A stretch of 49,289 bases of DNA, from the IMG/VR virus record IMGVR_UViG_3300049217_000371, positions 1 through 49,289 of that record. The stretch is one strand, 5' to 3'. Shown here one piece after another: positions 5,693 to 20,442 of the stretch; position 1 is the stretch's first letter, and every line of letters starts with the position of its first letter. The notes below the pieces were generated by a model. It searched no databases and was not told the DNA's origin. It saw only the letters and a list, made by a program, of their open reading frames with translations. A program made the position numbers and the translations under genes. Origin of the DNA: a virus.

Positions 5693-6013
5693 ATGACACT
5701 TGCTGCCCTCGACACTCACGCGATCGTCAAAGACCTGCGCGCCGCCGGCTTCGACGAAGCGCAGGCCGAGGCCGTCACCCGCGTGGTGCGACAGGCGCAG
5801 GAAGTCGACCTGTCTGCCCTCGCGACCAAGGTCGACCTTCAGACGGGTCTCGCGGCCGCCAAGGCCGACCTTCAGACGGGTCTCGCGGCCGCCAAGGCCG
5901 ACCTGGCCGAAGCCAAGGCGGAAATCCTCAGGTGCATGGTCAGCGCGATCGGCATCCAGACCATCGTGATCATCGGCGCCGTGCTGGCACTGCTGCATTC
6001 CAGCAGCCGGTAA
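5693..6013 (+). CDS. DUF1640 / CCDC90-like coiled-coil membrane protein
   Basis: 106-aa protein with the DUF1640 layout: N-terminal MTLAALDTHAIVKDLRAAGFDEAQAEAVTRVVR, a coiled coil from about residue 38 to 80, and a C-terminal transmembrane helix (about 84-102, AIGIQTIVIIGAVLALL). In Alphaproteobacteria these proteins are common in genomes and prophages; their molecular function is not established. Start chosen at ATG 5693, where the family begins and GGAG lies 9 bases upstream. The coiled coil contains an exact 33-bp tandem duplication. Confidence 0.8.
   Translation: MTLAALDTHAIVKDLRAAGFDEAQAEAVTRVVRQAQEVDLSALATKVDLQTGLAAAKADLQTGLAAAKADLAEAKAEILRCMVSAIGIQTIVIIGAVLALLHSSSR
5834..5899 (+). 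repeat. Exact 33-bp tandem duplication within DUF1640 gene
   Basis: Two identical 33-base units (5834-5866 and 5867-5899) encode DLQTGLAAAKA twice, followed by a related third unit DLAEAKAEILR. The period is 11 residues, which fits an 11-mer coiled coil. Identity at the DNA level implies a recent duplication, and the number of units may vary between related phages. Confidence 0.85.
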
Positions 6014-6024
6014 CCAGGCGCCGC

Positions 6025-6186
6025 TCACCGGAAGACGCCCAGCAAGACGGCCACGAAGTAAAGCAGCACCAACACCGCCGCGAGCCGGAGCGAGTCCTTC
6101 AGCAACTGCCAAAGCACCAGCCCGAGCTGCCGGACGACGGCCGCGACGCTTGTCCCAGGCTCGGGGCCAGAAATGCGCTGCGGCAT
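6025..6186 (-). CDS. 53-aa single-span membrane peptide, paralogue 1
   Basis: Short ORF starting MPQRISGPEPGT and ending VAVLLGVFR. An amphipathic segment (about residues 14-32, VVRQLGLVLWQLLKD) precedes one transmembrane helix (about 34-51). Two more copies of the same length occur at 6959-7120 and 7744-7905. The three share the pattern RQL...WQLLKD.LRL.AVL.LLY..AV.LGVFR, which strongly supports coding. GGAGG lies about 10 bases before the ATG, at the edge of repeated cassette A. Function unknown; small membrane peptides in this position could be holin-like, toxin-like or exclusion proteins. Confidence 0.75.
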   Translation of the reverse strand: MPQRISGPEPGTSVAAVVRQLGLVLWQLLKDSLRLAAVLVLLYFVAVLLGVFR

Positions 6187-6276
6187 CAAGGAGCCCCTCC
6201 GCCGGCCGGATCGTTGCCGATCCGACCGGCCTCACCTACCGTCGTTGCGCTACCACCCGCACCAACGGAGGATTCA
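6187..6276. promoter_or_regulatory. Divergent promoter/palindrome cassette, copy A
   Basis: 90 bp between the starts of paralogue 1 (leftward) and a Pro-rich peptide (rightward). A palindrome at 6202-6229 has 12-base arms (CCGGCCGGATCG and its complement, one mismatch) around the loop TTGC. It is followed by CACCTACCGT and then GGAGGATTC immediately before the rightward ATG. TTGCCG and TACCGT are spaced 17 bases apart and could be a rightward -35/-10 pair. Copies B, C and D share this order. Confidence 0.7.
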
Positions 6277-6396
6277 ATGGCAAAACTCCCACCGCCGCCA
6301 CGACCGGCGCCGGCGCCGAGGCCGCCCGGACAAATCCAGACTCCTAAACCGAAGCCGCAAGCCAGAGGGAAAGGCCCACGGCCACCAACATCATGA
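6277..6396 (+). CDS. 39-aa Pro-rich basic peptide
   Basis: Starts MAKLPPPPRPAPAPRPPG and ends GKGPRPPTS; almost entirely Pro, Ala, Arg, Lys and Gln. The start is fixed by GGAGGATT four nucleotides before the ATG, the same spacing as in cassette C. The 3' end overlaps the end of the opposing membrane-protein gene by 53 bases. Low sequence complexity makes coding status less sure than its neighbours. Function unknown. Confidence 0.5.
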   Translation: MAKLPPPPRPAPAPRPPGQIQTPKPKPQARGKGPRPPTS

Positions 6397-6874
6397 TGTT
6401 GCCCGCGCGGATGCACCACGACAGCCGCGCCAGTTGCCTCGCATTCCGATCCGCCGCCATGGCCGCGCGAAGCGCCAGCGCCTCCACCGTTTCCAGCTCG
6501 GAGTCGTAGGGCTGATCGAGGAGAAACCTGGGGTCGTCGCCGATGACACCCCAGGCCTTCGGCCAGCTCACGACCATGAACACAACTGCGGCGATCAGCA
6601 GCGCCGAGATCGGCAGCGCAACATGAAACCGATCCCGAAACGCCGATGATGTCGCCGCCAAAGCGAGAGCCAGCGTAATGCTCCAACCCAAACCCGATGA
6701 CGCTCGGCCGACCATCAACGCCTGTGCGGCCATCTGGCCCGAGACATGCATTTCTCCCTGGCGCAGTGCCTCGCGGGCGCACCAGAGCCGCAGTCCATCG
6801 CCCCGCACCTCGCCAGCCTCTATCCGGCTCTGCGGCTGGTCCTCCGGCGGCGGGACACTGCTCTCTGTTTCCAT
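6344..6874 (-). CDS. Multi-span membrane protein, 176 aa
   Basis: Soluble N-terminus of about 60 residues, then a hydrophobic hairpin (about 63-105, SITLALALAATSSAF and ISALLIAAVVFMVV), a helical soluble stretch (DSELETVEALALRAAMAADRNARQLARL) and a C-terminal transmembrane helix (IMMLVAVGLSLWLAA). Start chosen at MET ESSVPPPE with AGGGG upstream; a longer frame has no clear signal. It lies in the leftward set downstream of the repressor, a location typical for lysogenic conversion or superinfection-exclusion genes. That role is inference, and no family is recognised. Confidence 0.65.
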   Translation of the reverse strand: METESSVPPPEDQPQSRIEAGEVRGDGLRLWCAREALRQGEMHVSGQMAAQALMVGRASSGLGWSITLALALAATSSAFRDRFHVALPISALLIAAVVFMVVSWPKAWGVIGDDPRFLLDQPYDSELETVEALALRAAMAADRNARQLARLSWCIRAGNIMMLVAVGLSLWLAASV

Positions 6875-6958
6875 GGCGGGAACCCCTGTCGTGAGATTGA
6901 TATAGGGCGCGCAACGCAAACCGCTCCGCAACCGGGCCGAGGATGTGGGCCGAACGCC

Positions 6959-7120
6959 TCACCGGAAGACGCCCAGCAAGACGGCCAGCAGGTAGAGCAA
7001 TGCCAGAACGGCGCCGAGACGCAGCAGGTCCTTCAGCAACTGCCAAAGCAGCCGGCCGAGCTGCCGGACGACGGCCGCGACGCTTGTCCCAGGTTCGGGG
7101 CCAGACATGCGCTGCGGCAT
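6959..7120 (-). CDS. 53-aa single-span membrane peptide, paralogue 2
   Basis: Closest to paralogue 1 (MPQRMSGPEPGT start, LLAVLLGVFR end). The central part (RLLWQLLKDLLRLGAVLALLYLL) matches paralogue 3 almost exactly. One transmembrane helix at about 34-51. Its ATG overlaps the TGA of the 183-aa leftward frame as TGATG and lies at the edge of cassette B, with GGAGG upstream. Same uncertain role as the other copies. Confidence 0.75.
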   Translation of the reverse strand: MPQRMSGPEPGTSVAAVVRQLGRLLWQLLKDLLRLGAVLALLYLLAVLLGVFR

Positions 7121-7671
7121 CACGGAGCCCCTCCGCCGGCCGGATCGTTGCCGATCCGGCCGGCCTCACCTACCGTTGCGGCGCTACCAAACGCATCAAC
7201 GGAGGATTCCTCATGCCCGACAACGCCGATCTCATCGCCGCCATCGAGGCCGCCACCGACCGGATCGAGCGCGCTCTCAATGCCCAGGCCGCCGCCACTC
7301 TCACCCGCATCAGCCTGCGGGAGATTCCGGATATCAAGCAGGAGACCATCGCCGGCATCTGGCGGTGGTTCCTTAGCGAAGTCGCCGCCAAGTGACACCA
7401 TGGCGCCCGTAGTCAGGAAAGCCGCGTAGGCGCCTGCCTGAGCTGTGATGAGAGCGAGATCGGGCGCAGCCCCGAATTTCGGACCGGTCAGAAAGTCGAG
7501 GGCGGCGAACCGGGCAGCGGACGCATCATCACCACCGGCGAACACGAACGTTACAAGCGCGGCCGACAGTTGCAGCTCATCACTGTCGGTCGCCGCATGG
7601 TTAAACCTATGAAGACGGCGCGCCTTTTTCAGGCACGCGAGACGAACTGCGAAGCGTTGATTATCATCCAT
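7120..7671 (-). CDS. Hypothetical protein, frame open for 183 aa
   Basis: Begins MDDNQRFAVRLACLKKARRLHRFNHAATDS after the strong box GGGAGGCGCG, the same ribosome-binding box used by three rightward genes at 9.1-10.3 kb. The first ~95 residues look like a natural mixed helical protein. The rest is Gly/Asp-rich and is antisense to the 60-aa gene at 7213-7395 and to cassette B, so it may be read-through after loss of an original stop. The TGA overlaps the ATG of paralogue 2. Function unknown. Confidence 0.45.
   Translation of the reverse strand: MDDNQRFAVRLACLKKARRLHRFNHAATDSDELQLSAALVTFVFAGGDDASAARFAALDFLTGPKFGAAPDLALITAQAGAYAAFLTTGAMVSLGGDFAKEPPPDAGDGLLLDIRNLPQADAGESGGGLGIESALDPVGGGLDGGDEIGVVGHEESSVDAFGSAATVGEAGRIGNDPAGGGAP
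7121..7212. promoter_or_regulatory. Divergent promoter/palindrome cassette, copy B
   Basis: 92 bp between paralogue 2 (leftward) and the 60-aa rightward gene. The palindrome at 7136-7163 is perfect: 12-base arms (CCGGCCGGATCG, CGATCCGGCCGG) around TTGC. CACCTACCGTTG follows, then GGAGGATTC 11 bases before... the rightward ATG region (GGAGGATTCCTCATG). The best-preserved copy, near-identical to A over most of its length. Confidence 0.7.
7213..7395 (+). CDS. 60-aa helical protein downstream of cassette B
   Basis: Sequence MPDNADLIAAIEAATDRIERALNAQ followed by a helical second half ending WRWFLSEVAAK. The start follows the cassette box GGAGGATTC. It is wholly antisense to the C-terminal half of the leftward 183-aa frame; both may not be used. 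The balanced amino-acid composition favours this one in the overlapping part. No family recognised. Confidence 0.6.
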   Translation: MPDNADLIAAIEAATDRIERALNAQAAATLTRISLREIPDIKQETIAGIWRWFLSEVAAK

Positions 7672-7743
7672 GGATACGCGCCTCCCGACGCGCGGAAGGG
7701 GCTGAATGTCGTTCGGAGGAACGCTCCGCCGGCGATGTCTTCC

Positions 7744-7905
7744 TCACCGGAAGACGCCCAGGAAGACGGCCAGCAGGTAGAGCAATGCCAGAACGGCGCC
7801 GAGGCGCAGCAGGTCTTTCAGCAACTGCCAGATCAGCCGCGAAAGCTGGCGGATAACGGACGCGAAAGCCGGGCGAGGTTCAGGGGCGGGGTTGAGCCGC
7901 AGCAT
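7744..7905 (-). CDS. 53-aa single-span membrane peptide, paralogue 3
   Basis: Starts MLRLNPAPEPRP and ends LLAVFLGVFR. One transmembrane helix at about 34-51. GGAGGA lies 7 bases before the ATG. Unlike paralogues 1 and 2 it is not next to a palindrome cassette; instead, two 17-bp operator-like sites (7943-7959, 7975-7991) lie 38-86 bases upstream, between it and the repressor gene. It may therefore be controlled directly by the repressor. Confidence 0.75.
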   Translation of the reverse strand: MLRLNPAPEPRPAFASVIRQLSRLIWQLLKDLLRLGAVLALLYLLAVFLGVFR

Positions 7906-7942
7906 GAGACGTTCCTCCACCGCGACAATGCGGCGATGGAAG

Positions 7943-7959
7943 TTCGCACTTCGCGAGAA
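7943..7959. promoter_or_regulatory. Putative repressor operator 1
   Basis: TTCGCACTTCGCGAGAA. It shares the half-sites TTCGC and GCGAGAA, at identical spacing, with sites at 7975-7991 and 8422-8438. Located upstream of paralogue 3. Confidence 0.5.
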
Positions 7960-7974
7960 GTTACGTCAAGTGGT

Positions 7975-7991
7975 TTCTCGCGCGCCGCGAA
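7975..7991. promoter_or_regulatory. Putative repressor operator 2
   Basis: On the minus strand TTCGCGGCGCGCGAGAA, matching the TTCGC-N5-GCGAGAA pattern. Lies just beyond the 3' end of the repressor gene, upstream of paralogue 3. Confidence 0.5.
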
Positions 7992-8005
7992 TGTCCGCTA
8001 GTGAG

Positions 8006-8353
8006 CTAGGAGCCGACCTTTTCGCTGCGCGAGATTCTTTCGCCAATCGAAAGCCACTCCTGAGCAGCCTCCGGCGTGAGCGCCGCTAGAATGTCAGCTG
8101 CCTTCCGCATGCTCGCATACTCCTGCTCCTTTTCAGGAGGGAACAGCAGCGCGGCCGGATGGCACCCGTAAGCCGCCGCAAGACGCTTGAGATCGTCAAG
8201 ACCCACGCCACGAGCCCCCGTCTCCCAGCCGCTGATGGTGTTGTTCTTCGAGCCAATAAGCTCGGCCACCCGTTCCAACGTCAGGCGTTTCGAACGCCTC
8301 CACGCGCGTAGGTAAGTGTGGAGCTCCACGGGCTGATGGTCGTTCTTCGCCAT
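8006..8353 (-). CDS. XRE-family prophage repressor
   Basis: 115-aa repressor. An N-terminal helix-turn-helix spans about residues 10-65 (TYLRAWRRSKRLTLERVAELIG then NNTISGWETGARGVGLDDLKRLAAAYG). A short C-terminal helical part lacks a LexA/CI-type peptidase domain, so induction would not work by RecA-stimulated self-cleavage. Start chosen at MAKNDHQP, where XRE repressors begin; the longer frame crosses the operator region. It is divergent from the Cro-like gene 92 bp away, the classic lysogeny switch. Confidence 0.85.
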   Translation of the reverse strand: MAKNDHQPVELHTYLRAWRRSKRLTLERVAELIGSKNNTISGWETGARGVGLDDLKRLAAAYGCHPAALLFPPEKEQEYASMRKAADILAALTPEAAQEWLSIGERISRSEKVGS

Positions 8354-8409
8354 CAGCTGAAGATGCCTTCTGCGCGAGAATGCTCCATTCCCTGATGGTG
8401 AGAAAGCTC

Positions 8410-8438
8410 TTGACCCAAACGTTCGCGCAGTGCGAGAA
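8410..8438 (+). promoter_or_regulatory. Cro promoter with operator 3
   Basis: A -35-like TTGACC at 8410-8415 is followed by the 17-bp dyad TTCGCGCAGTGCGAGAA at 8422-8438 (7 of 8 base pairs symmetric), which would overlap a weak -10 region. This fits repression of the rightward operon by the XRE repressor. The predicted transcript start falls close to the ATG at 8446, so the mRNA could be nearly leaderless. Confidence 0.5.
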
Positions 8439-8445
8439 ATCGAGC

Positions 8446-8661
8446 ATGAGACTGGCAACGTATCTCGAAAACTCTGACGACACCCTGACCGGGCTCTCCA
8501 AACGCACGGGGATCAAGGTGACGACACTCCACGGCTACATGACGCTGCGCCGCATTCCGAACGCCGTGAACGTGGCAAAGCTGGAGGAGGCGACGGGCGG
8601 CAAGGTCTGCGCCCGCGATCATATCCCCGAAACCGCCGAGCAACCTGGATGTGCTGCATGA
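8446..8661 (+). CDS. Cro-like HTH protein
   Basis: 71-aa DNA-binding protein (MRLATYLENSDDTLTGLSKRTGIKVTTLHGYMTLRRIPNA). The helix-turn-helix at about residues 14-40 resembles YdaS/Cro-type antirepressors. Start chosen at ATG 8446 because the 22 residues before it run through the promoter and operator. First gene of the rightward early operon; its TGA overlaps the next ATG. Confidence 0.75.
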   Translation: MRLATYLENSDDTLTGLSKRTGIKVTTLHGYMTLRRIPNAVNVAKLEEATGGKVCARDHIPETAEQPGCAA

Positions 8662-9092
8662 CGGCGTTATTCCCGACCGTCGGGACGGCGGTCCTGCGGT
8701 CCGTCGGAGTCCGCGTTCCGAGCCTTTACAGAGGCTTCCGACCGATTCGGCAGGGGGGGGGGTACGAGTCGATACGGTGGCGTCAGACCCGGAACCGGGC
8801 CGGTGAAGAGAGACGAATGCGGCGCGAGCATGTCCAAATTCGTCTCCCCCATTGGCTTGTTGGTGAGCCGTGCGTTTCATTATGGTTACAACACTTTCTT
8901 TCGACTTCGCAACCTCATCTCTTGACGGGACCACGTTTTTCTGATGCGCGGCATTTCCGAAGGAAATTTCAGACATTGCCTCGCCCTGCCGGGATAGCCG
9001 GAGGCGGCCATCTGGGTCACATTCGTCCTCAACGCCAGCAAAAATGCATGCGAATTTCTTCCGCGCGTCGGGAGGCGCGCATTCATGGATGA
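8658..9092 (+). CDS. Uncertain ORF with a G10 tract
   Basis: 144-aa frame, ATGA-coupled to the Cro-like gene and ending REARIHG, whose codons contain the GGGAGGCGCGC ribosome-binding box of the next gene. The amino-acid sequence looks unnatural in places (Arg/Pro-rich, no domain), and a run of ten G at 8753-8762 could shift the frame. Internal starts exist at 8817 (this frame) and 8830 (another frame, a 31-aa peptide). I regard the coding status as open. Confidence 0.35.
   Translation: MTALFPTVGTAVLRSVGVRVPSLYRGFRPIRQGGGYESIRWRQTRNRAGEERRMRREHVQIRLPHWLVGEPCVSLWLQHFLSTSQPHLLTGPRFSDARHFRRKFQTLPRPAGIAGGGHLGHIRPQRQQKCMRISSARREARIHG
8753..8762 (+). repeat. Homopolymer of ten G
   Basis: Ten consecutive G bases, encoding Gly-Gly-Gly in the frame at 8658-9092. 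Tracts of this length are prone to slippage and could switch the reading frame on and off; it is also a common sequencing-error site. Confidence 0.9.
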
Positions 9093-9381
9093 CGTGAGAC
9101 CGTCACTCGTGGCGACGCACGTAGTCTGCTGCTCGGATCTTTGGTTTGATCTGGTTGACGGGACATCAACGCTTCGCATGGCGGTGCAGCGTCCGGACGT
9201 TCCGCGCGAATTCTGGAGCATCCTCACAGGCGGCATCGCAGTGAGATTCCGTGAATTGGCTGTGATCAGGGGGCGCCGAGTGTTCGAAGCCATTGAATGG
9301 CGTCGGGAAGATTCGCCAGACCCATCCGTACGAGCTGAGCCAATCCAGCCTGAAGGGCCGCTTCGGGAGGCGCGCATCTGA
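9085..9381 (+). CDS. Hypothetical protein, 98 aa
   Basis: Begins MDDVRPSLVATHVVCCSDLWFDLVDG; mixed alpha/beta composition with a RFRELAVIRGRRVFEAIEW segment. Strong box GGGAGGCGCGC ends 4 bases before the ATG. It ends REARI because the same box for the next gene is embedded in its last codons. The TGA overlaps the next ATG. No family recognised. Confidence 0.65.
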   Translation: MDDVRPSLVATHVVCCSDLWFDLVDGTSTLRMAVQRPDVPREFWSILTGGIAVRFRELAVIRGRRVFEAIEWRREDSPDPSVRAEPIQPEGPLREARI

Positions 9382-9647
9382 TGACACGGTTCGCGCTACG
9401 CCGGCCGGCGAAGATCCCCAAGGGATTGCCTGAGGGGATTCGGTTGTTCCGTGAACGGCGGCTCCCGATGGAGCAGGCGGAACCGTGGATGCGGTGGCCA
9501 CGATCCATCGTCAAGCCGTCGCGGACGCCGACCGTTGTGGACGCTACATTTTGGAACAGCGCTCAAGAAGAGCTTGTGTCCGAGATCTTGCGTAATCGAC
9601 CGGCGCAGGGCCCAGCGGACTTGATTTCCGGTGCTTCTCAAGCATGA
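9381..9647 (+). CDS. Hypothetical basic protein, 88 aa
   Basis: Begins MTRFALRRPAKIPKGLPEGIRLFRERRLPMEQAEPWMRWP. TGATG-coupled to the previous gene with GGGAGGCGCGC upstream. The last 35 codons are antisense to the leftward gene at 9544-9798, so one of the two may really be shorter or unused. Function unknown. Confidence 0.5.
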   Translation: MTRFALRRPAKIPKGLPEGIRLFRERRLPMEQAEPWMRWPRSIVKPSRTPTVVDATFWNSAQEELVSEILRNRPAQGPADLISGASQA

Positions 9648-9798
9648 GCAAAACGGCATCCACTGCTGCGACAGCGTCATCCTTTGGAATCAGCCCGTGC
9701 TTGATGAGGGCGGTCCAAAGCGCGGCCACGTTAAGGCCCGCGAAAATGGCCTCGCCATTGGCCATATTGAGCGCTCTTTCGAGCGATTGTTCGTCCAT
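9544..9798 (-). CDS. Hypothetical helical protein, 84 aa, leftward from cassette C
   Basis: Begins MDEQSLERALNMANGEAIFAGLNVAALWTALIKHG and is helical throughout. The start is fixed by the cassette box GGAGGATTC ending one base before the ATG, at the same relative position as in cassettes A and D. Convergent with the 88-aa gene and overlapping it by 104 bases. No family recognised. Confidence 0.6.
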   Translation of the reverse strand: MDEQSLERALNMANGEAIFAGLNVAALWTALIKHGLIPKDDAVAAVDAVLLMLEKHRKSSPLGPAPVDYARSRTQALLERCSKM

Positions 9799-9882
9799 AG
9801 AATCCTCCGATGGTTGTGTGGAAGCTCCAACGGTAGGTGAAGGCGGCCGGGTCGGCAACGACCTGGCCGCCGGAGGCGCGCC
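9799..9882. promoter_or_regulatory. Divergent promoter/palindrome cassette, copy C
   Basis: 84 bp, inverted relative to A and B: the GGAGGATTC box faces the leftward gene. The palindrome at 9842-9871 has 13-base arms (GGCGGCCGGGTCG and partner, one mismatch) around GCAA. GGAGGCGCGCC precedes the rightward GTG at 9883. The conserved ACGGTAGGTGA is present. Confidence 0.7.
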
Positions 9883-10350
9883 GTGACGCAGCAGCACGCC
9901 CCGCACGTCTATGCCAGAGTCAAAACGGCCTGGAAGCTCCTGGTGGGTCGCCTTGGTGGCGTCGAGGCCGTGACATCCTGTACGCGGGCGGCGCGCAGCC
10001 TCGCCAGCGACTATGGCAACGTCCATAGCGACCGCTACGTCCCGGTCGATGTGCTGCTGGACGCCGAAACCGTCGCCGGCGAGCCGCTTGTGACGGCCGC
10101 CCTGGCGCGGGCGCAAGGGTACGAGCTGATCCCCGTGTCGCCCATGTCGGAGACGGACCTCGCCATCGAGGTCGCCCGCCTGGGCGCCGATGTCGCGGAC
10201 CTATTTGCGCAGATCTCCGCGCATCTGTCCGGCGCGCCGCTTTCCGACCCGCAGCGGGCCAAGGCTCTGGCCGACCTTGTGGATGTCAAGCTGGTTGTGC
10301 TGCGGGCCGAAGCCATCCTGGGGCGTCGGGAGGCGCGCGGTCATGGATGA
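9883..10350 (+). CDS. Phage protein, possibly CII/CP76-like regulator
   Basis: 155-aa protein. Residues 10-60 (VKTAWKLLVGRLGGVEAVTSCTRAARSLASDYGNV, then RYVPVDVLLDAETVAG) match the layout of a family frequent in alphaproteobacterial prophages next to GcrA and primase genes and sometimes annotated as CII-like regulators. A helical C-terminus follows. GTG start, supported by GGAGGCGCGCC. It ends GRREARGHG, with the next gene's ribosome-binding box embedded. The family call is from memory of the pattern, so moderate. Confidence 0.6.
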   Translation: MTQQHAPHVYARVKTAWKLLVGRLGGVEAVTSCTRAARSLASDYGNVHSDRYVPVDVLLDAETVAGEPLVTAALARAQGYELIPVSPMSETDLAIEVARLGADVADLFAQISAHLSGAPLSDPQRAKALADLVDVKLVVLRAEAILGRREARGHG

Positions 10351-10525
10351 AGTAACAGCGGCAGGCGGCCAAGTCGGCAATGACGAAGCCGCCGGCGGTG
10401 TGACCCAGCAGCAAGCGGCCTATGTCCCAGGTGACGACTGGGATGCGGTGCTTCGGCAGTACAGGCTGGCAATGGATATTTTTATAGCGTCAGCACCGCA
10501 ATCCAGTCAGAGGCCAGCCGAGTGA
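10343..10525 (+). CDS. 60-aa protein spanning a degenerate cassette
   Basis: Begins MDEVTAAGGQVGNDEAAGGVTQQQAAYV. The first 17 codons are a decayed cassette palindrome (10364-10393). From codon 20 (GTG ACC CAG CAG) it resembles the start of the gene at 9883 (GTG ACG CAG CAG), so it may be a duplication of a cassette plus gene start that became translated. GGGAGGCGCGC lies upstream. The last 44 bases are antisense to the leftward gene. Confidence 0.55.
   Translation: MDEVTAAGGQVGNDEAAGGVTQQQAAYVPGDDWDAVLRQYRLAMDIFIASAPQSSQRPAE
10364..10393. repeat. Degenerate cassette palindrome, copy E
   Basis: GGCGGCCAAGTCG, GCAA, then TGACGAAGCCGCC. The order and loop match copies C and D, but the arms have several mismatches and the flanking TAGGTGA and GGAGGATTC boxes are missing. 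Lies inside a reading frame. Confidence 0.5.
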
Positions 10526-10733
10526 TGCCTTGCCTCGCCAACTCCTCCCCTTGGAAGTCCAGCGCGAACCTTGGTTCGGCTTTTGCGGCTTCATTTATGA
10601 GGTTGACTGCGTACGCTTTTGCTTCTGGCGTCGCGTTTCTCAGTAGACCGGTAACGACGATGCTCAGCATCTGCGTTTCGGCGCGAAGTATTTCCAGATT
10701 TTCGGCAACGCGTGCCATCGATAGTTCGGCCAA
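10482..10733 (-). CDS. 83-aa helical protein, TTG start, leftward from cassette D
   Basis: LAELSMARVAENLEILRAE then QMLSIVVTGLLRNATPEAKAYAVNLINEAAKAEPRFALDF. The TTG start is deduced by alignment of cassette D with A and C: GGAGGATTCtTTGGCCGAAC corresponds to GGAGGATTCtATGGACGAAC. An in-frame ATG six codons in is the alternative. Function unknown. Confidence 0.6.
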   Translation of the reverse strand: MAELSMARVAENLEILRAETQMLSIVVTGLLRNATPEAKAYAVNLINEAAKAEPRFALDFQGEELARQGITRLASDWIAVLTL

Positions 10734-10817
10734 AGAATCCTCCGTCGGTCGTGTGACAGCACCAACGGTAGGTGAAGGCGGCCGGGTCGGCAACGATCCG
10801 GCCGCCGGAGCGATCCC
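10734..10817. promoter_or_regulatory. Divergent promoter/palindrome cassette, copy D
   Basis: 84 bp, same length and orientation as C. The palindrome at 10777-10806 has 13-base arms with one G-T type mismatch around GCAA. ACGGTAGGTGA and GGAGGATTC are present toward the leftward gene; CCGGAG lies before the rightward ATG at 10818. Confidence 0.7.
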
Positions 10818-11024
10818 ATGAGCGCGCGTCTCGATTCCAGCCGGTTCCCCCAGCTGCACGACCAGCTGCGCACAAGCACCGGCTACACGCTCGCGCGTGG
10901 TGGGGTGATCCGCATGCCGCCGCCGATCGAGCGCGAGCGGACCGAGACGCCGGTCATTCGCGATGTCACCGTTTCACCGAAGAAGAAAGCCCGCGCGAAG
11001 CGGCCCGCGAAAGGCGACCTATGA
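10818..11024 (+). CDS. Hypothetical basic protein, 68 aa
   Basis: Begins MSARLDSSRFPQLHDQLRTSTGYTLARGGV and ends in a Lys/Arg-rich tail (SPKKKARAKRPAKGDL) that could bind nucleic acid. Start at the edge of cassette D. Its TGA overlaps the GcrA start as ATGA. No family recognised. Confidence 0.65.
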   Translation: MSARLDSSRFPQLHDQLRTSTGYTLARGGVIRMPPPIERERTETPVIRDVTVSPKKKARAKRPAKGDL

Positions 11025-11464
11025 GCGACGCGGTTTGGACGGAGCTGATGATTTCCGAGCTCCGCACCATGTGGGACTCGGACTGGAAAGCATCCGCGAT
11101 CGCCGAAGCTCTCGGCATCAGCAAGAATGCCGTCGTCGGGAAAGCGCATCGCCTCCAGCTCGCGTCGCGGCCGAGCCCGATTCGGACTTCAGTGACGCCG
11201 AAAGCGCAGGCGCCCTCCAAGACGGAGCGGGCGGCGGCGCTGAAATTGCCGGATGGCGCGAAGCGGGCAGCTGCCGCGCCGATCCCGAAGCCCGCGCCAC
11301 GTGAGCGGCCGCCTGCAGACGGCTGCCGCTGGCCCATGTGGGCGTTTGCGGCGGCCGCGACCCACAAATACTGCGGCGAGCCCCGAACGGACGTGGCTGA
11401 GCCGTATTGCGCCGTACATCGGGCGATCGCGTTCACGCCCATCAAGCGCCTGGTCGCGGCATGA
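11021..11464 (+). CDS. GcrA-family cell-cycle regulator homologue
   Basis: 147-aa GcrA-like protein. The N-terminal DNA-binding domain (VWTELMISELRTMW then AIAEALGISKNAVVGKAHRLQL, residues 5-48) matches the family's W-T...I-A..L-G..N-A-V-x-G-K-x-H-R-L pattern. A Pro/Ala-rich linker leads to a C-terminal region with CRWP (C102), YCGEP (C118) and YCAVHRAIAF (C130, H133). In Caulobacter, GcrA binds GANTC sites methylated by CcrM and contacts sigma-70. A phage copy may retarget host RNA polymerase. ATGA-coupled to both neighbours. Confidence 0.9.
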   Translation: MSDAVWTELMISELRTMWDSDWKASAIAEALGISKNAVVGKAHRLQLASRPSPIRTSVTPKAQAPSKTERAAALKLPDGAKRAAAAPIPKPAPRERPPADGCRWPMWAFAAAATHKYCGEPRTDVAEPYCAVHRAIAFTPIKRLVAA

Positions 11465-12321
11465 GCGACCAATCGCCACCATTGTTGCGCCTCGATCGCC
11501 TTGAGCGTGCCTGCCTTGAGCTGGCGCAGGCAATCGCGAACTTCACGGGCGCACTACAAGCGGAGTTCCGGCGGCTCGAATCCACCGTGGCACCGCATTC
11601 CCACCCGGCGGAGGTGTCAGCTTCGCCGGTGACTGACCAACCGGTGGCGCCCGTGTCGCATGACGCGCCGGTTGGGGACTTCTTGGACGTTTCCTCCCAG
11701 ACTTCGGGATCCCACGGGAATAAGTCGCGTGGGGACCCGGCGCCGGCGGAGCCGAAAGCTCCGCCGGCGGCTTTTTTGAGTGCGTCTCGATGGACGCCAG
11801 AGCGGCTGGAGCTATTGCGCGAGACCTATACGAGCGGCGTTCCCCTCGGCGATATCGAACTACGACTGAACGCTCTGCCTTCGAAGATCGCGGTTTCGAA
11901 AAATCAGATCGGCGCAATGGCGGCGACGAAGGGTTGGCAGCGGCCGCCCGAATCCCGGCTGAAACCGCCCGATTCCTGGACGCCGGAGCGTCTGGCGGTG
12001 GCGCAGCCGCTTTATGAAACCGGCGCGCCGATGGCGCAGATCATCGCCGCCGTGAACGCGCTTCCAGGTCCCCCTATCAACCCGTATCGCGTGACAGTTT
12101 TCGCCGGTGCACATCGTTGGACGCGCGGCGGTCCCGCCGAGCAGTCGGTCTCGACGACGCCGGTACCGGCCAATGCGACCGAGATCATCCATTGGGCAGG
12201 CCAGCGCGGAATCATGGTGGGCCGCGGCACGCTACCGATAGACAAGATCAACGCGAAGCGCGCCGATCTCGGCATGCCGCCATTCGCGCTGACGCCTTCC
12301 CTCCGCGGGGCAATTGCGTGA
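11461..12321 (+). CDS. 286-aa protein with two WTPER HTH-like repeats
   Basis: An N-terminal helical part (1-45) and a Ser/Pro linker (46-105) precede two ~50-residue repeats: RWTPERLELLRETYTSGVPL (110-160) and SWTPERLAVAQPLYETGAPM (172-221). Each resembles the opening of a GcrA or SANT-type DNA-binding domain, with tryptophans at the start and end. Directly coupled to the gcrA homologue, it may be a co-regulator acting on the same DNA, but no function is established. A C-terminal third of about 60 residues is distinct. Confidence 0.65.
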   Translation: MSDQSPPLLRLDRLERACLELAQAIANFTGALQAEFRRLESTVAPHSHPAEVSASPVTDQPVAPVSHDAPVGDFLDVSSQTSGSHGNKSRGDPAPAEPKAPPAAFLSASRWTPERLELLRETYTSGVPLGDIELRLNALPSKIAVSKNQIGAMAATKGWQRPPESRLKPPDSWTPERLAVAQPLYETGAPMAQIIAAVNALPGPPINPYRVTVFAGAHRWTRGGPAEQSVSTTPVPANATEIIHWAGQRGIMVGRGTLPIDKINAKRADLGMPPFALTPSLRGAIA

Positions 12322-12563
12322 GTCTGGACTGCACACCTCAGAGCTTCGATCGTGGCCGCGCGCTGCTGGACCGGCTACGGCTGGAAAGCGGCGTCGAGAA
12401 CCTTGGCATCGATCTCGCTGTGGCGCTTGGCATCCTGATCGCTGACGAATGCCCGGGCCACGACCTGCGTCTGCCCTTGGCGCTGGCGAATGCCATCACG
12501 CTGGCGGCCTGCAGGCTACGGCGGAAAGCCGCTGTGGTCTCCAGCTGCGCGGGATCGGCCTGA
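12318..12563 (+). CDS. Hypothetical helical protein, 81 aa
   Basis: VSLDCTPQSFDRGRALLDRLRLESGVENLGIDLAVALGIL; helical, with four cysteines scattered along its length. GTG start overlapping the upstream TGA (GTGA), stop overlapping the primase ATG (TGATG). No family recognised; its conserved position suggests an accessory to replication. Confidence 0.6.
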   Translation: MSLDCTPQSFDRGRALLDRLRLESGVENLGIDLAVALGILIADECPGHDLRLPLALANAITLAACRLRRKAAVVSSCAGSA

Positions 12564-13612
12564 TGACAGCCACGCATCAACACGATGCTGGCTCCATCGC
12601 GCGGATGCTGGCGGCCCGCGCGCCGTCCCTGGCGCGCGAGCTGCTGCCGGCCGGCCGGCGTGACGGCCAGGAATGGCGCTGCGGCAGCCTCGCCGGCGAG
12701 CGTGGCGGAAGCCTTGGCGTGCGGCTGACGGGCGCCAAGGCTGGCGTTTGGCAGGATTTCGCGACGGGCGAGACGGGTGATGCGCTCGACCTGGTGGCGG
12801 CCGTCAACTATCGCGGCGATCGGCGTGAGGCGCTGCGCTGGGCCCGCCAGTGGCTCGGTCTGGGCAATGACGCGGCCGCGCCGACCCGTCCCGCGACGCC
12901 GCCGCCTTCACAGCCGGAGGAAGACGAGACGGAGCAACTCGCCCGCGTTCGTGCGGCAGCTCTCGCGCTCTGGCTTCATGCCAAGCCCGCGCTCGCCGAT
13001 ACTCCGGTCGACCACTATCTGAAGGCGCGCGGCATCGACCTGTCGCGCCTCGGCCGTCAGCCGCGGGCGCTGCGATTCCACCCGTCGCTCCATAACGTCG
13101 AGAGCCAGCGCACCTGGCCGGCCATGGTGGCCGCGATCAGCGGTGCCGACGGCGCGCATGTGGCGACCCATCGCACCTGGCTCGCGACCGATCGTGCCGG
13201 CGTCTGGCGCAAGGCGCCGCTGCAGAAGACGAAGATGGTGCTGGGACGCATGCAAGGCGGCAGCATCCGCTTGTGGCGCGGGGTTTCCGGCAAGTCCCTC
13301 GCCGATGCACCGGCTGACGATCTGATCGTGATCGGCGAAGGGATCGAGACCTGCCTGTCGATCGCGCTGGCTGTTCCCGAGGCTCGAGTACTGGCCAGCG
13401 TCAGCCTTGGGAACCTCGCCCGTATCGGCCTTCCGGATCAGATCAAGCGGGTGACGATCGCGGCCGACAACGACACCGCGCCAGAGGCCAGGCGTGGGCT
13501 GGTGCGCGGGCAGAATGCCTTAATGGCGCGCGGGCTGGAGGTGCGCGTGGCGCGCAGCCCGATCGGCTCCGATTTCAACGATGCACTGATGGGGTTTTCC
13601 GAATGCGGGTGA
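12563..13612 (+). CDS. Toprim-domain DNA primase
   Basis: 349-aa primase-like protein. The N-terminal region (about 1-100) has the GRRDGQEWRCGSL / GVWQDFATGETGDALDLV pattern of the DUF7146 / CHC2-derived primase domain. The Toprim domain carries GEGIET (residues 258-263, catalytic E259) and AADND (300-304, metal-binding D302, D304). It would make RNA primers or nick/join DNA for phage replication. Coupled to the upstream gene and overlapping the zinc peptide by 10 bases. Confidence 0.85.
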   Translation: MTATHQHDAGSIARMLAARAPSLARELLPAGRRDGQEWRCGSLAGERGGSLGVRLTGAKAGVWQDFATGETGDALDLVAAVNYRGDRREALRWARQWLGLGNDAAAPTRPATPPPSQPEEDETEQLARVRAAALALWLHAKPALADTPVDHYLKARGIDLSRLGRQPRALRFHPSLHNVESQRTWPAMVAAISGADGAHVATHRTWLATDRAGVWRKAPLQKTKMVLGRMQGGSIRLWRGVSGKSLADAPADDLIVIGEGIETCLSIALAVPEARVLASVSLGNLARIGLPDQIKRVTIAADNDTAPEARRGLVRGQNALMARGLEVRVARSPIGSDFNDALMGFSECG

Positions 13613-13794
13613 GACCGTGCCGCGTCTGCGGGCAGATGGGCGCCTACTACCCGTCGATCATCATTCGGCCGGGCATGGTCACGGTGCGCAGGCCGCCAGC
13701 CTGCGATGTCTGCGACGGTACTGGCGTGATTCCTCCCGATCGCCCGGGCATCGAGCAGGTGATGGCCCAGCTCGCGGTCAGGCTGCAGAAGTGA
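13603..13794 (+). CDS. 63-aa CxxC zinc-finger protein
   Basis: Two paired motifs, CRVCG (C6, C9) and CDVCDGTG (C34, C37), form a DnaJ-like zinc knuckle. Sits between primase and DUF4031 in a coupled operon: the start overlaps the primase 3' end, the stop overlaps the next GTG. Probably a DNA-replication accessory; no specific function known to me. Confidence 0.75.
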   Translation: MRVRPCRVCGQMGAYYPSIIIRPGMVTVRRPPACDVCDGTGVIPPDRPGIEQVMAQLAVRLQK

Positions 13795-14135
13795 CCGTCT
13801 ATGTCGACGATATGTATCTGCGGCCGCTCGGGCGGTTCGCGCGGATGAAGATGTCGCACATGATCGCCGATACCGATGATGAGCTGCACGCGATGGCGGC
13901 GGCGATCGGCGTGGCCCGCAAGTGGCATCAGGGGCCGCCAACGCACGATAGCCATTACGACATCGCGCTGTCTAAGCGGTCGCTGGCCGTCGCGGCCGGC
14001 GCCGTGGAGATTACGCTGCGCCAATGCGCCTGCATGAGCACCTGGCGGCGGGGTCATGGCGGCGCGCTGCTGCCGCCGGCCGAAGCCGAGAAGCGGTTTA
14101 CCGAAAAAGCCCTCAGCAAAGCGGCTGGCGAGTGA
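13791..14135 (+). CDS. DUF4031 family protein
   Basis: 114-aa protein starting VTVYVDDMYLRPLGRFARMKMSHMIADTDDELHAMAAAIG, followed by RKWHQGPPTHDSHYDIALSKR, the defining DUF4031 pattern. Widespread in phages and bacteria; function unknown. GTG start chosen by the GTGA overlap with the preceding gene and because the family begins with VYVD. Residues D6-D7, H21 and the W-H-Q block are the obvious candidates for a functional site. Confidence 0.85.
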   Translation: MTVYVDDMYLRPLGRFARMKMSHMIADTDDELHAMAAAIGVARKWHQGPPTHDSHYDIALSKRSLAVAAGAVEITLRQCACMSTWRRGHGGALLPPAEAEKRFTEKALSKAAGE

Positions 14136-15991
14136 AAGACTGGGCTATGAGCGACGAAGGCACGCGCAATGTCCGTAGCGCAATCGAGGGCGCCGGGCGG
14201 GCGTTTCAAGTGATCGATGGTGGAGGCGGCGGCAGAGGTCCGACGAAACCGCCAGAGGATCGATCACCGCCTGACAAGCTGCCGTGTCCTCTCACCTGTC
14301 TCGGCCACCTCGAGGGTCATTTCCACTTTCTCGATGCGCGCGGGCAGAAGCGGCAGCTCGGCGCCCGCGCCCTGGGCAATCGGCATGAGCTGCTCGCCCT
14401 GTTCCTGGGAAGCGACGCCTGGTTACGACAAGAGTTCCCGAAAAAGGCGAAGGTCCAGCGTGAGGAGAACGGAGAGAAGGTCGAGGTCGAAATCGTCGTC
14501 GATTTCGCGATCAACAACGCCGCGAAGTGGCTGCAGCGCGAGTGCGGCGAGCAAGGGCTTTATGGTGAACACGTCGTGCTGCGTGCACCCGGCGTGTGGC
14601 CGGGCGAAGGCGGTTTTCCCGTGGTTCATTGCGGTGACGCGATCCTGATCAAGGGCGTCTGGGAAAAGCCGGGCACGCGCACCGGCAACCAGGTGTGGGC
14701 GGCGGCCGCGCCTGTTCCCCGCCCCGCGAATGGATGCGACGTAAGCGTCGGCCTGCAGCTGCAAGGCGACCTGCAAGCCCTGTGGAACTTTCGCAAGCCG
14801 GGCGGCGAGATCGCCGTGCTGGGCTTGATCGCTTGTGGCTATTACGGCGCGTCGGCTCGCTGGCGACCGGCCGGCTTTCTGCTCGGCGGCATGGCGACCG
14901 GAAAGTCGTCGCTGCTAAACGTGATGAAGGCGGCGTCGCCGCTGCACTATTATAGCAACGACACCAGCAAGGCCGGCATCGAACAGTCGATCAGCGGCCG
15001 CGCCATGCCTATCTACATCGATGAAGCGGCCGATCGGCAGGATCAGCACGGCGCCCGGGTGCTGTTGGACATGGTTCTCTCCGCCAGCGGTGGCGAAGGC
15101 ACGAAAGGCACGCGCGGCGGTGCCGACGGCCAAGCGCGCAGCTTTCAGATCGCCGGCAGCATCGTCATGGCCGCGATCTCGCCGCCCGACATGCAGCCGC
15201 AACATCTCTCGCGCTTTACGCTGATCGAGCTCGTCCGCGCGGCCGCCGGCGAGGATCATCAGACCGCGCATAAAAAGCTGGTCGAAGACATCTCCGCTGC
15301 AGGGCCGTCGCTTTGGGGTCGCGCCCTGGAACGCTCTGAGCTGTTCCAGGAATCGATCACGCTTTTCAGGGCGCAGCTTCTCGAATCGGGCTCCGCGCCA
15401 CGGGAGATGGACCAGATTGGCGCTCTGCTGGCTGGTTGGTGGATACTGACGCATGAAGGCAAGCCATCGGGGCGCGATTGCCGCGAAGGCGTGGACGCTC
15501 TGGAAGCCTTCATCCATGGCGCCGAGGAAACGCTGATGGAGGACGCGCCTAAGCGCATGGTGCGGCATCTGATGAGCAGCACCGTGCAGCTTTCGCGCTC
15601 GACGGATCGCGCGCAGATCGGCTCGCTGATCGGTCAGGTTCTGCAGACGCACTCCCATCTGGAATTTGAGGTGTCTGACAACCTGGCTCGCACCGTTCTT
15701 GCGAACCACGGCATGCGCGTGATCCGCCACAATGAGGCCAAGGATGCGCGCGGGCGTGAAGCGCCTCGCGCTGCTCACGGGAATGGCATATGGTTCGCGC
15801 CTGGGGCTGTCGAACTGCGCAAGCTGTTCGCTGGCACAAGCTGGGAGGGCGATCGCTGGATCTACGATCTCAGGCGACTTGAGAGTGCTCGCGAACCCAA
15901 AATGCAGGTTCGCGTCGGCAGTTTGAAGGGCCGCTGCACCTGGGTCAGCGCGGAAGAGCTTGGTTTTGACGATGACCCGTCATCTGCCTAG
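14132..15991 (+). CDS. Phage replication ATPase/helicase
   Basis: About 619-aa ATPase. Walker A GGMATGKSS (residues 252-260) and Walker B-like MPIYIDEA (292-299) sit in a D5/SF3-like helicase core. The N-terminus (about 50-220) is a phage-specific domain with a LGARALGNRHELLALFLG segment. It likely unwinds DNA at the origin just downstream. GTG 14132 overlaps the upstream TGA (GTGA) like its neighbours; ATG 14147 (MSDEGT) is an alternative start. Much longer upstream extension would run through DUF4031. Confidence 0.8.
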   Translation: MKDWAMSDEGTRNVRSAIEGAGRAFQVIDGGGGGRGPTKPPEDRSPPDKLPCPLTCLGHLEGHFHFLDARGQKRQLGARALGNRHELLALFLGSDAWLRQEFPKKAKVQREENGEKVEVEIVVDFAINNAAKWLQRECGEQGLYGEHVVLRAPGVWPGEGGFPVVHCGDAILIKGVWEKPGTRTGNQVWAAAAPVPRPANGCDVSVGLQLQGDLQALWNFRKPGGEIAVLGLIACGYYGASARWRPAGFLLGGMATGKSSLLNVMKAASPLHYYSNDTSKAGIEQSISGRAMPIYIDEAADRQDQHGARVLLDMVLSASGGEGTKGTRGGADGQARSFQIAGSIVMAAISPPDMQPQHLSRFTLIELVRAAAGEDHQTAHKKLVEDISAAGPSLWGRALERSELFQESITLFRAQLLESGSAPREMDQIGALLAGWWILTHEGKPSGRDCREGVDALEAFIHGAEETLMEDAPKRMVRHLMSSTVQLSRSTDRAQIGSLIGQVLQTHSHLEFEVSDNLARTVLANHGMRVIRHNEAKDARGREAPRAAHGNGIWFAPGAVELRKLFAGTSWEGDRWIYDLRRLESAREPKMQVRVGSLKGRCTWVSAEELGFDDDPSSA

Positions 15992-16023
15992 ACTCAATAA
16001 TTCTTTCAAATCAGACCTGTCTA

Positions 16024-16254
16024 AGCTGGGAACAAGCTGGGAACGAAAAATCCCGCAATATCAGACGTGTACCACGTGGGAACATGGGAACGGGTTTCCC
16101 CCTATGCATGTTCATTCGTCATTGGCGAATTTTCATATATGGGTCAAAAACCGTTCCCAGCGTTCCCAGCTATATCTCTATTCCTAATAGGATAATGATA
16201 TGAATGTCTTAAGCTGGGAAGGAAGCTGGGAAAAAGCTGGGAACGGCTGGGAAC
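16024..16254. other. Iteron-like repeat cluster, candidate replication origin
   Basis: Ten copies of TGGGAA(C), most within the decamer AGCTGGGAAC. Direct copies begin near 16024, 16035, 16077, 16085, 16212, 16224, 16235 and 16246; two inverted copies (GTTCCCAGC) lie at 16153 and 16162. They flank an AT-rich stretch at 16110-16205. The location just after the helicase gene fits an iteron origin. The last four copies fall inside the 5' end of the DUF6362 gene. Confidence 0.6.
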
Positions 16255-16700
16255 GAGATCGATCTCACAACGATCGGCCTTCCGTTTCGCTGGAAGAGCT
16301 GGTCGTCGCGCGTTTGGAGGATGCCGGCCGCGTTCTGCTCACCTTGCCCGTGCGCGGTCACTCGACGCATCTACGGACGGGTCATCCCGAAGTCGTTCAT
16401 GGGGCGATCGAAGCCTATGGCTGGCATACGGCGACGCCTCGACCCGCGCTTCCATCGGCTGAGCGCATTTCGAAGATGGATGAAGCGCTGTCATGGATCA
16501 GTCTGATCCCGGTGACGCGCGTCGCTTTGCGGCGCGTCATAGGCCGGAGAATGCTGGTGCATCCGTTGAACGATCGTCATCTCTACAGCTGGCGAAAGAT
16601 CGGTCGCGAGCTGGGCATCAGCCACCATACGGCCGAGAGCTGGCACGGCGACGGCGTCGGCATGATCGCTGTTGCGCTGAGGATTAAATTTTCGGTTTAG
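16200..16700 (+). CDS. DUF6362 family protein, HTH at C-terminus
   Basis: 166-aa protein matching DUF6362: LEELVVARLEDAGRVLLTLP, then MDEALSWISLIP, then SWRKIGRELGISHHTAESWHGDGVGMIAVALR, the last being a helix-turn-helix (about 131-155). Often the final gene of the early region in alphaproteobacterial prophages and possibly a late-gene regulator (inference). The first ~20 codons are made of iteron repeats (SWEGSWEKAGNGWERD), so the true N-terminus may tolerate this or the start may lie further in, but no better start is seen. Confidence 0.75.
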   Translation: MNVLSWEGSWEKAGNGWERDRSHNDRPSVSLEELVVARLEDAGRVLLTLPVRGHSTHLRTGHPEVVHGAIEAYGWHTATPRPALPSAERISKMDEALSWISLIPVTRVALRRVIGRRMLVHPLNDRHLYSWRKIGRELGISHHTAESWHGDGVGMIAVALRIKFSV

Positions 16701-16702
16701 GT

Positions 16703-16732
16703 TTGACAGATTGCCCAGACGAATCGTATTCA
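16703..16732 (+). promoter_or_regulatory. Promoter for the late (head) region
   Basis: TTGACA at 16703-16708 and TATTCA at 16727-16732, 18 bases apart. The consensus -35 and its place right after the early operon make it the best sigma-70-like promoter of the window. A terminator-like hairpin follows within about 25 bases. Confidence 0.55.
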
Positions 16733-16752
16733 ATCACTACTCTGCGAGTATG

Positions 16753-16794
16753 AGCGCCCGCCAAGGTTCCAGCCCTGGCGGGCGTTTCTGTTTG
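16753..16794 (+). terminator. Hairpin terminator or attenuator in the late leader
   Basis: CGCCCGCCA (16755-16763) pairs with TGGCGGGCG (16776-16784), followed by TTTCTGTTT. Lies between the promoter at 16703 and the first late gene, so read-through would have to be regulated, or it only ends early transcripts. Confidence 0.7.
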
Positions 16795-16816
16795 GAGGTC
16801 AAGGATGTCCTAGATC

Positions 16817-17593
16817 ATGGCCGCCCCGTTCAAAATTAGCCTGGCCGGCGATCTGGCGAAATTCTCCGACGCTTTCCGCGGCGACGTGGAAAAGCAGCTT
16901 CGCTTCGCCGGCGCTGTCGCTCTGACGCATTGCGCTCAGGCGGCGCAGAAGGCGATCGTCGAAAAGATGCCGCACATCTTCGATCGGCCGACCCCGAGCA
17001 CGCTGAATGCGCTGCGCGTCGTGCCGGCGACGAAGGCAAAGCTGGAAGCGACCGTGCTGGTGAAAGACTTCACCGGCAAAGGTCCAGCGCCGCAGAACTG
17101 GCTATCGGCCGAGATCATGGGCGGCAATCGCGCGCACAAGCGCAGCGAGAACGCGCTGATTCGAGCCGGGGTGATGCAGCCGGATCAGTTCTGGACGCCG
17201 GGCGAAGGCACAGAGGCAACGCTGGACGCCTATGGCAACGTGCCAAGCGGCCTTATCGTTCAGGCCATCTCGCGCGTGTCGGCGTTTGGCGAGCAAGGCT
17301 ACAAGGCCAACGTCTCCGATGCGGTGCGCCGCCGGCTTCTGCGGAAGAAGCTCGTGGCCAGCAAGCGGACCGGGACGGACTTCTTTGTCTGGCGCGATGC
17401 GGATGGGCGCGCGAAGGCGATCATGCAGCTGCTCGGGAAAGGTGATGTCGAACCGATCCTGTGGTTCACGGATCGCGTGCCCGTCTACGCTCCGCGCTTC
17501 GCCTTCGACGATCTCGTGCTGGCGACTGTCGAGGCGTCGTTCGGGCGGGAGATGGCGGCGGCGATCGAGATGGCGCGCAGCACTGCGAGATAA
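16817..17593 (+). CDS. Conserved phage protein, probably virion-associated
   Basis: 258-aa protein. The signature HIFDRPTPSTLNALRVVPATKAKLEATV with a following KDF..KG...NWL...IMGGNRAHKR and LDAYGN is shared by a phage family related to minor tail/head-completion proteins; its exact role is not settled. C-terminal segment WFTDRVPVYAPRFAFDD resembles the ending of tail-completion proteins. Its place before the terminase, away from the tail genes, is unusual. Start ATG with GGAGGTCAAGGATG-rich region upstream. Confidence 0.6.
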   Translation: MAAPFKISLAGDLAKFSDAFRGDVEKQLRFAGAVALTHCAQAAQKAIVEKMPHIFDRPTPSTLNALRVVPATKAKLEATVLVKDFTGKGPAPQNWLSAEIMGGNRAHKRSENALIRAGVMQPDQFWTPGEGTEATLDAYGNVPSGLIVQAISRVSAFGEQGYKANVSDAVRRRLLRKKLVASKRTGTDFFVWRDADGRAKAIMQLLGKGDVEPILWFTDRVPVYAPRFAFDDLVLATVEASFGREMAAAIEMARSTAR

Positions 17594-17730
17594 AGCAATC
17601 CCGATCGGGTCTGCGTCGAAGAGAGCCCTGCCCTGCCCGGTGAGCTATGCATTCGCCGCGGGTCCTTCCTGGCCCAGCGCATGTCCCACGGGTAATTCGC
17701 ACCCCGGTTTGAGACACGGTTTTTGTAAAT
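17594..17730. other. Non-coding gap before terminase, candidate cos region
   Basis: 137 bases with no supported ORF on the plus strand. It contains CGCGGGTCCTTCCTGG and CCCACGGGTAATTCGC. Because the packaging enzymes are lambda-type (Nu1/gpA), a cohesive-end site is expected just upstream of the small subunit. I see no recognisable cosN, so this is positional inference. Confidence 0.25.
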
Positions 17731-17746
17731 TCGAAAGGGCTTTCGA
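17731..17746 (+). promoter_or_regulatory. Hairpin covering terminase ribosome-binding site
   Basis: TCGAAAG-GG-CTTTCGA, a perfect 7-bp inverted repeat directly before the TTG start. The AAAGGG that would pair with 16S rRNA lies inside the stem, so translation of the small terminase subunit may be restrained, or the dyad is a protein-binding site. Confidence 0.45.
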
Positions 17747-20441: not shown

Positions 20442-20442
20442 G

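Follow-up and report, generated by a model that had tools for sequence, protein, structure and literature searches.

Why does one short stretch of DNA stand several times between small genes of the same phage, and what does it do there? The question is raised by IMG/VR virus record IMGVR_UViG_3300049217_000371, whose 49,289 bases are here called the window. Its left end encodes a phage integrase, with three Pfam domains over cut-off, and 8006-8353 encodes a CI-like helix-turn-helix (HTH) protein. An earlier note had described four copies (A to D) and a decayed fifth (E) of a palindrome-bearing cassette, had suggested a modular promoter that spreads small genes, and had proposed cell-cycle control through GANTC sites and GcrA. 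We find that the cassette, about 90 bp long, belongs to an apparently undescribed family standing before unrelated genes in other viruses as well. Judged from its sequence, it is probably a portable transcription-start module of temperate phages, composed of a promoter, an operator-like dyad and a hairpin on the opposite strand.

When the whole window was scanned position by position with a covariance model built from A-D, the copies were placed at 6187-6276 (A, minus strand, 103.3 bits), 7121-7210 (B, minus strand, 104.3 bits), 9799-9885 (C, plus strand, 107.2 bits) and 10734-10820 (D, plus strand, 106.8 bits), with E-values of about 1e-24 to 1e-25. Because A-D are the model's own training set, the test lies in the gap between these scores and the next full-length match in the window, which reached 15.6 bits; the other-strand reads of the A-D palindromes scored 19-24 bits. 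Copy A runs from the Shine-Dalgarno (SD) sequence of the gene on its GGAGGATTC side to the start of the opposite gene. The four copies thus lie where the earlier note had placed them, and each carries the palindrome and the two shared sequences, CACCTACCGT and GGAGGATTC, that it had listed. All four are oriented alike, the GGAGGATTC side toward the CI-like gene and the hairpin side away from it. The decayed copy E (10364-10401, plus strand), a hairpin half inside an open reading frame (ORF), is marginal by score, its 16.1 bits (E 0.017) barely exceeding the best chance match in the window (15.6 bits), but its resemblance to C continues onward into GTGACSCAGCAGCA. The start of the ORF concerned (10344-10525) contains the E remnant, and the VGND frame is fused there in frame to a stretch that resembles the beginning of the CII-like gene.

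The stretches shared by the copies differ in extent: A and B have 252 nt in common (88%), the hairpin-side gene that comes next included; C and D share 92 nt (88%), and B and C share 68-99 nt of cassette only, between unrelated genes. Since the common part of B and C is the cassette alone and the flanking genes are unrelated, the cassette is the recurring unit, and the repetition in the window is, by these alignments, more than one simple duplication.

Aligning the cassette across other phages and genomes, the check that had been suggested for it, supported the modular promoter idea: the cassette recurs before unrelated genes at 26 sites outside the window, in virus records and alphaproteobacterial genomes, which together with the four window copies make up the 30 sites used here. 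The host is known for few of the virus records; several of the viruses are from alphaproteobacteria. An IMG/VR search, five of whose six loci were dropped, yielded a near-identical relative, IMGVR_UViG_3300049218_000513 (99.99% identity over 9085-21381), which carries C and D. Phages with a common early region were reached via the GcrA protein, and the model gave 23 matches in them, 21 of which were dropped; L139 was kept at once and L154 later, when a weight matrix added it together with a second copy in L234. In L139, a model match (27.6 bits, E 2e-4) lies exactly upstream of a 43% relative of the promoter-side gene of C, and the cassette is kept in the syntenic relatives L139 and L154. A model scan of the genomes, after 17 of 19 places had been dropped, left matches in genomes G057 and G021 with the same layout in different letters.

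Pattern searches supplied further members. The core pattern found 11 loci in IMG/VR, five of which were kept, one being the near-identical phage; among the six dropped, one similar group appeared by eye to have no SD and start codon at the usual place. The dyad pattern TACCATCGG-N13-CCGATGGAG found 14 loci in IMG/VR, all kept, three of them without the hairpin; with at most one mismatch it matched 1 of 36 and 6 of 82 genomes of two families (backwards control, 0), and the removal of 4 of 11 places in the 82-genome scan left 4 of the 6 matching genomes. Another genome pattern gave 12 places, 5 of which were dropped, as compared to about 40 for its backwards control, so that by itself it proves nothing in genomes; the members it contributed were kept on features outside it, namely dyad, hairpin and SD with start codon. 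A loose pattern in genome contigs returned at least 119 stretches, which were screened by script; the one inspected by eye was rejected. Comparison at the DNA level found no close relative of the first 25 kb of the window among phage records, only weak partial matches of the cassette among phages and plasmids, no match of 5.5 kb of the window among 82 genomes of one family, no match of a 69-bp outside member at E up to 1 and 0.01, and no Rfam match above the gathering score in the window.

Iteration is not special to the window, since three cassettes lie within 1.5 kb in G057 (IMG/VR record L229) and two in L234. The surroundings of the sites in G057 and G435 also occur in the IMG/VR virus records L201, L229 and L234. 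At 8015-8590 of L174 (G057) lies an array of nine repeat copies, about 66 nt in period, that is CRISPR-like in appearance.

The promoter reading had to be refined in that only one direction, toward the gene preceded by GGAG(G), shows a recognisable promoter, predicted to be of the sigma-70 type, the palindrome being an RNA-type hairpin on the other strand; the GcrA/GANTC part was not supported, as set out below. Toward the GGAG(G) gene the layout runs -35, 17-base spacer, -10 TACCrT, dyad, GGAG and start codon. The predicted -35 TTGCCG and -10 TACCGT lie at 7148-7153 and 7171-7176 in B (plus strand), at 9853-9858 and 9830-9835 in C (minus strand) and at 10788-10793 and 10765-10770 in D (minus strand), on sequence and the spacer test; in A (plus strand) they were assigned by sequence at 6214-6219, in the palindrome loop 17 nt before the -10, and at 6237-6242. 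With TACC as anchor, at 26 of the 30 sites (A left out), the match to TTGACA peaks at a spacer of 17 with 81 of 156 letters, against a mean of 33.4 in shuffles (0 of 2000 as high) and at most 48 for all other spacers from 10 to 25, the -10 itself having been an anchor for many rows. The -35 hexamers of the members include TTGCCG, GTGACG, GTGACA, ATGACG and ATGACA. Within the -10 the T, the A and the last T are constant and the surrounding arm letters vary; T at position 6 is kept even where its dyad partner differs (C), which fits a promoter. GGAG follows the dyad directly in most members, and 6-10 nt past it, in 26 of 28 rows (one site is counted in two rows), a start codon heads an ORF that is 57 aa or longer, the exceptions being A (39 aa) and L230 (contig end). 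A plain consensus promoter scan of 5900-11600 called none.

A second, shorter dyad, absent from the earlier note, is by its covariation the operator-like part of the cassette. It spans 27 bp (CCATCGG-N13-CCGATGG and covarying variants) over the -10 and start region, its left arm containing the -10, its right arm reaching into the SD GGAG, and its half-site centres lying 20 bp, about two turns, apart. The arms are CCATCGG/CCGATGG in many members, CCTTTGG/CCAAAGG in L223, CCATGGG/CCTATGG in L199 and CTATGG/CCATAG in L154; in the window the putative operators are CCGTTGG-N13-CCATCGG in C (9807-9833, minus strand) and CCGTTGG-N13-CCGACGG in D (10742-10768, minus strand), both resting on the covariation in 12 members. 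These 12 of the 30 sites are the members first gathered without the dyad pattern, L154 via model and weight matrix. Among them 94% of cells are paired, as compared to 81.0 (sd 2.1) after shuffling, and changes on both sides number 11 against 2.6 (sd 1.4), a value reached in 0 of 500 shuffles; slides of the register fail. Taken by themselves, the inner three positions of the arms give P = 0.0007 (8 distinct combinations). The imperfect cells of 28 rows hold five G.U pairs on the promoter-side strand vs three on the other, one of the five coming from the off-register second L234 copy. Compensating changes without a clear strand preference suit a DNA operator or two-fold protein site, and the dyad is best read as DNA, operator-like.

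The CI operator of the window phage was considered for this role and rejected, no dyad match being found in the control region of the CI-like gene. The word GCGAGAA clusters at that gene (7953, 7981, 8374 and 8432, i.e. 4 of its 11 occurrences in 49 kb) and is a candidate CI operator. The small gene adjoining the CI-like gene (8446-8661) has a weak HTH match below cut-off, and from its position and this match we call it Cro-like.

The long palindrome is separate from the dyad. It is located around the -35 in the members and its sequence is not conserved, as in GGAACGGGCAGC..GCTGCCCGTTCC of L206 and GGTTGAGCCGGGCC-GAAA-GGTCCGGCTCAACC of L220. Judged by z-scores, 26 of 30 members over 60 nt and 24 over 45 nt fold better on the strand that reads away from the promoter (sign test 3e-5 for 60 nt, the rows not all being independent). 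In the window, the second pair of the palindrome is C-G in A/B and switched to G-C in C/D, and the three wobble pairs (A, C and D) are G.U only on the hairpin strand. Given this strand-asymmetric folding and the G.U bias, the palindrome is best read as an RNA-type hairpin on the strand opposite to the promoter, carried by transcripts that run through the cassette toward the gene on the other side. The predicted hairpins lie at 6201-6230 in A (minus strand, that of the 6025-6189 gene, with a GCAA loop), 7135-7164 in B (minus strand), 9842-9871 in C (plus strand) and 10777-10806 in D (plus strand), and in the window their 3' arm abuts the opposite gene's SD.

A hairpin on this strand, which is the one relevant for termination, could also be an intrinsic terminator fused to the promoter and stopping transcription that crosses the promoter-side gene, as in the promoter-early-stem-loop (PeSL) cassettes discussed below. 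L242, L243 and L199 do carry 4 T in the 8-base tail. However, the 8-nt tail holds a mean of 1.46 T as compared to 1.39 expected, with at least 4 T in 3 of 26; this lack of U-tract enrichment makes a general terminator role unlikely. In the window, moreover, the tail is the SD of the next gene and leaves no space for another promoter. We therefore consider such a terminator improbable.

The four hairpins face away from the CI-like gene (8006-8353), have a GCAA loop and tolerate G.U pairs, which would suit a lambda-nut-like or other antitermination RNA in early transcripts; that interpretation is very unlikely, given that neither hairpin sequence nor loop is conserved among the members, that the promoter is the only conserved box beside the hairpin, and that the hairpin sits at ribosome sites and not in a promoter-proximal place. 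The chances are fainter still for a translated leader, in which translation would be coupled through a conserved frame (..VGExGRxGNDxAxGG..P stop) whose end overlaps the start codon that follows: the frame and the stop/start overlap (TTGA, GTGA, GTGA, ATGA) are found in 4 of 4 window copies, and in E the leader frame is fused to the ORF, but A and B have no in-frame ATG, GTG or TTG, the frame upstream is non-coding in C and D, and outside members do not conserve the hairpin sequence.

As to cell-cycle control, the GcrA homologue that had been proposed at 11021 was confirmed (PF07750, 11021-11464, plus strand, E 1.4e-16), and GANTC lies within the SD of all four window copies, near the start as in the GcrA/CcrM-regulated genes of Caulobacterales (PMC7987155). 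The family differs from those genes in that GANTC is not conserved and GcrA often was not found. Of the 26 outside members 19 lack the motif and 7 have it, scattered in position and only in two of these at the SD; it is also depleted across the whole window (99 vs 238 expected from dinucleotides). Of the 21 records that carry a cassette, fragments among them, 7 gave a GcrA match, 6 of these over the family cut-off. Four of the matches belong to the window, to its near-identical relative and to L139 and L154, the last two reached via GcrA; setting these four records aside leaves 3 of 17, fragments included. Action of the phage GcrA on methylated GATTC in GGAGGATTC, timing the small genes to the cell cycle, is accordingly the least credible explanation, for the site lies inside the SD, starting 31-34 nt after the first -10 base, 14 of the 21 records (fragments included) have no GcrA match, and the four window copies have a common descent.

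Several observations weigh against a promoter, operator and hairpin module. Copies A and B have an extra 3 nt, and their dyads are poor. Not every one of the 30 rows is independent, and the -10 and the dyad were fixed in the patterns that found most outside members, so that these letters are untestable on most of them. Three records with CII relatives (L137, L141 and L153) have no detected cassette, and 4 of 30 members show no better opposite-strand fold by z-score. No such hairpin occurs in L226, L227 and L232, where the cassette precedes a terminase small subunit gene; its place is taken in the first two by a terminator-like hairpin about 45 nt upstream, and L232 shows one like it. Finally, the imperfect dyad cells favour neither strand, and an RNA role of the dyad is possible.

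The genes beside the cassettes were assessed with a codon model trained on 27 ORFs picked by eye. On the promoter side, the gene of A (6277-6396, plus strand, Pro-rich) has 39 codons (39 aa), no coding signal and a doubtful status; that of B (7213-7395, plus strand, 60 aa) has a coding signal, an overlapping antisense frame scoring almost equally; that of C (9544-9798, minus strand, 84 aa) has a coding signal and, in L139, a relative with the cassette at the same place; and that of D (10482-10733, minus strand, 83 aa, TTG start) has a weak coding signal. The description of the copies as lying between divergent tiny genes is thus weaker at A, whose plus-strand gene is doubtful, and does not fit E, which lies inside its ORF. 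The gene of C has no Pfam match, and its relatives were found only in the record of L139 and in the near-identical phage, with none in 385 genomes. The promoter-side genes of C and D oppose the early operon.

On the hairpin side stand, at A, a gene for a small protein of membrane type by eye (6025-6189, minus strand), at B its relative with 85% identity (6959-7123, minus strand), at C a CII-like gene (phrog_101, E 1.2e-6; 9883-10350, plus strand) and at D the gene 10818-11024 (plus strand). The small membrane-type protein has three paralogous copies in the window (6025-6189, 6959-7123 and 7744-7905, all minus strand), the third without a cassette, and no relatives in IMG/VR. Across the family, an ORF with an SD-like word lies within 200 nt on this other side in 24 of 30 rows (a loose screen, no control), examples being the CII-like gene at C and genes in L207 and L228 that look ParB-like by eye.

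The promoter-side cargo comprises short helical proteins (C with L139, L221 with L235 and, weakly, L199 with L231), phrog_4753 in L223, with L224 by similarity, one family in L220 and L234, a WYL protein with a TerB match below cut-off, a zinc ribbon, and an Sf6-type terminase small subunit in L227, with L226 and L232 by similarity. By sequence, these groups are mutually unrelated and most of the genes are small. The presence of promoter and dyad before the terminase small subunit (L226, L227 and L232) indicates that they do not serve accessory genes alone.

Another repeated module, GCGTCGGGAGGCGCGC..CATGGATGA or near, was seen at 7664-7698 (minus strand), 9065-9105, 9359-9378 and 10323-10363; it supplies the SD of several genes and codes for the end of the preceding gene (RREARxxG-like), with a stop/start overlap in some.

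The nearest concept we found is that of the PeSLs, mobile cassettes of T4-type phages (Arbiol 2010 and Comeau 2014, as cited in PMC4503421, PMC3950731 and PMC5348500). According to these accounts, a promoter joined to a stem-loop recurs between variable small genes, which it is proposed to shuffle (PMC4503421, PMC3950731), and the archaeal virus HGTV-1 is reported to have a motif of similar kind (PMC3950731). Here too promoter and stem-loop form one repeated unit, three terminase-side members lacking the stem-loop. In contrast to the PeSLs as described there, the window phage is temperate, with integrase and CI-like HTH protein, and not T4-like lytic; a dyad lies over the start site; the hairpin is on the opposite strand around the -35, usually without a U-tract; and neighbours are divergent in the window and in many other members. 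The terminator feature was tested and is not found here, and the cassette is for that reason not filed as a PeSL. Prophage 'moron' or accessory loci, where a small gene with its own promoter lies antisense to lytic genes (PMC7067206), resemble it in that a small gene has its own predicted promoter and, for C and D, opposes the early operon; they differ in that here one promoter module serves many genes that are unrelated to one another, a structural gene (terminase small subunit) among them. A literature search by cassette sequence gave only unrelated subjects among the matches listed, and searches by sequence and concept, whose coverage excluded most subscription papers, did not find the element among the matches listed.

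How might such a module work? Sigma-70 holoenzyme would start 5-9 nt after TACCrT, giving a short leader that already contains an SD. A dimeric regulator bound to the dyad would cover the -10 and the start site and turn the gene off. Transcription of the early operon would cross the cassette from the opposite side, and the leader hairpin in the crossing transcripts might shield the neighbour's ribosome site or the RNA end from antisense transcription. The start step rests on sequence statistics; the regulator and hairpin-shield steps we infer. Since the whole switch fits in about 90 bp, duplication and recombination could move the cassette, and a ready-made regulated promoter would come to new genes, which often lie, moron-like, in antisense to the early operon.

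More tentatively, one conserved regulator, host-encoded or shared by phages, might read CCATCGG-N13-CCGATGG, in which case accessory genes of unrelated prophages across Alphaproteobacteria would form a common regulon by way of a 90-bp cassette in which a repressible promoter is combined with an RNA hairpin facing antisense. The cassette would provide a sequence signature for regulated accessory prophage genes, most of them without known function, and a concrete explanation for the way in which new genes may gain a working switch, and it makes testable whether unrelated prophages answer to one regulator.

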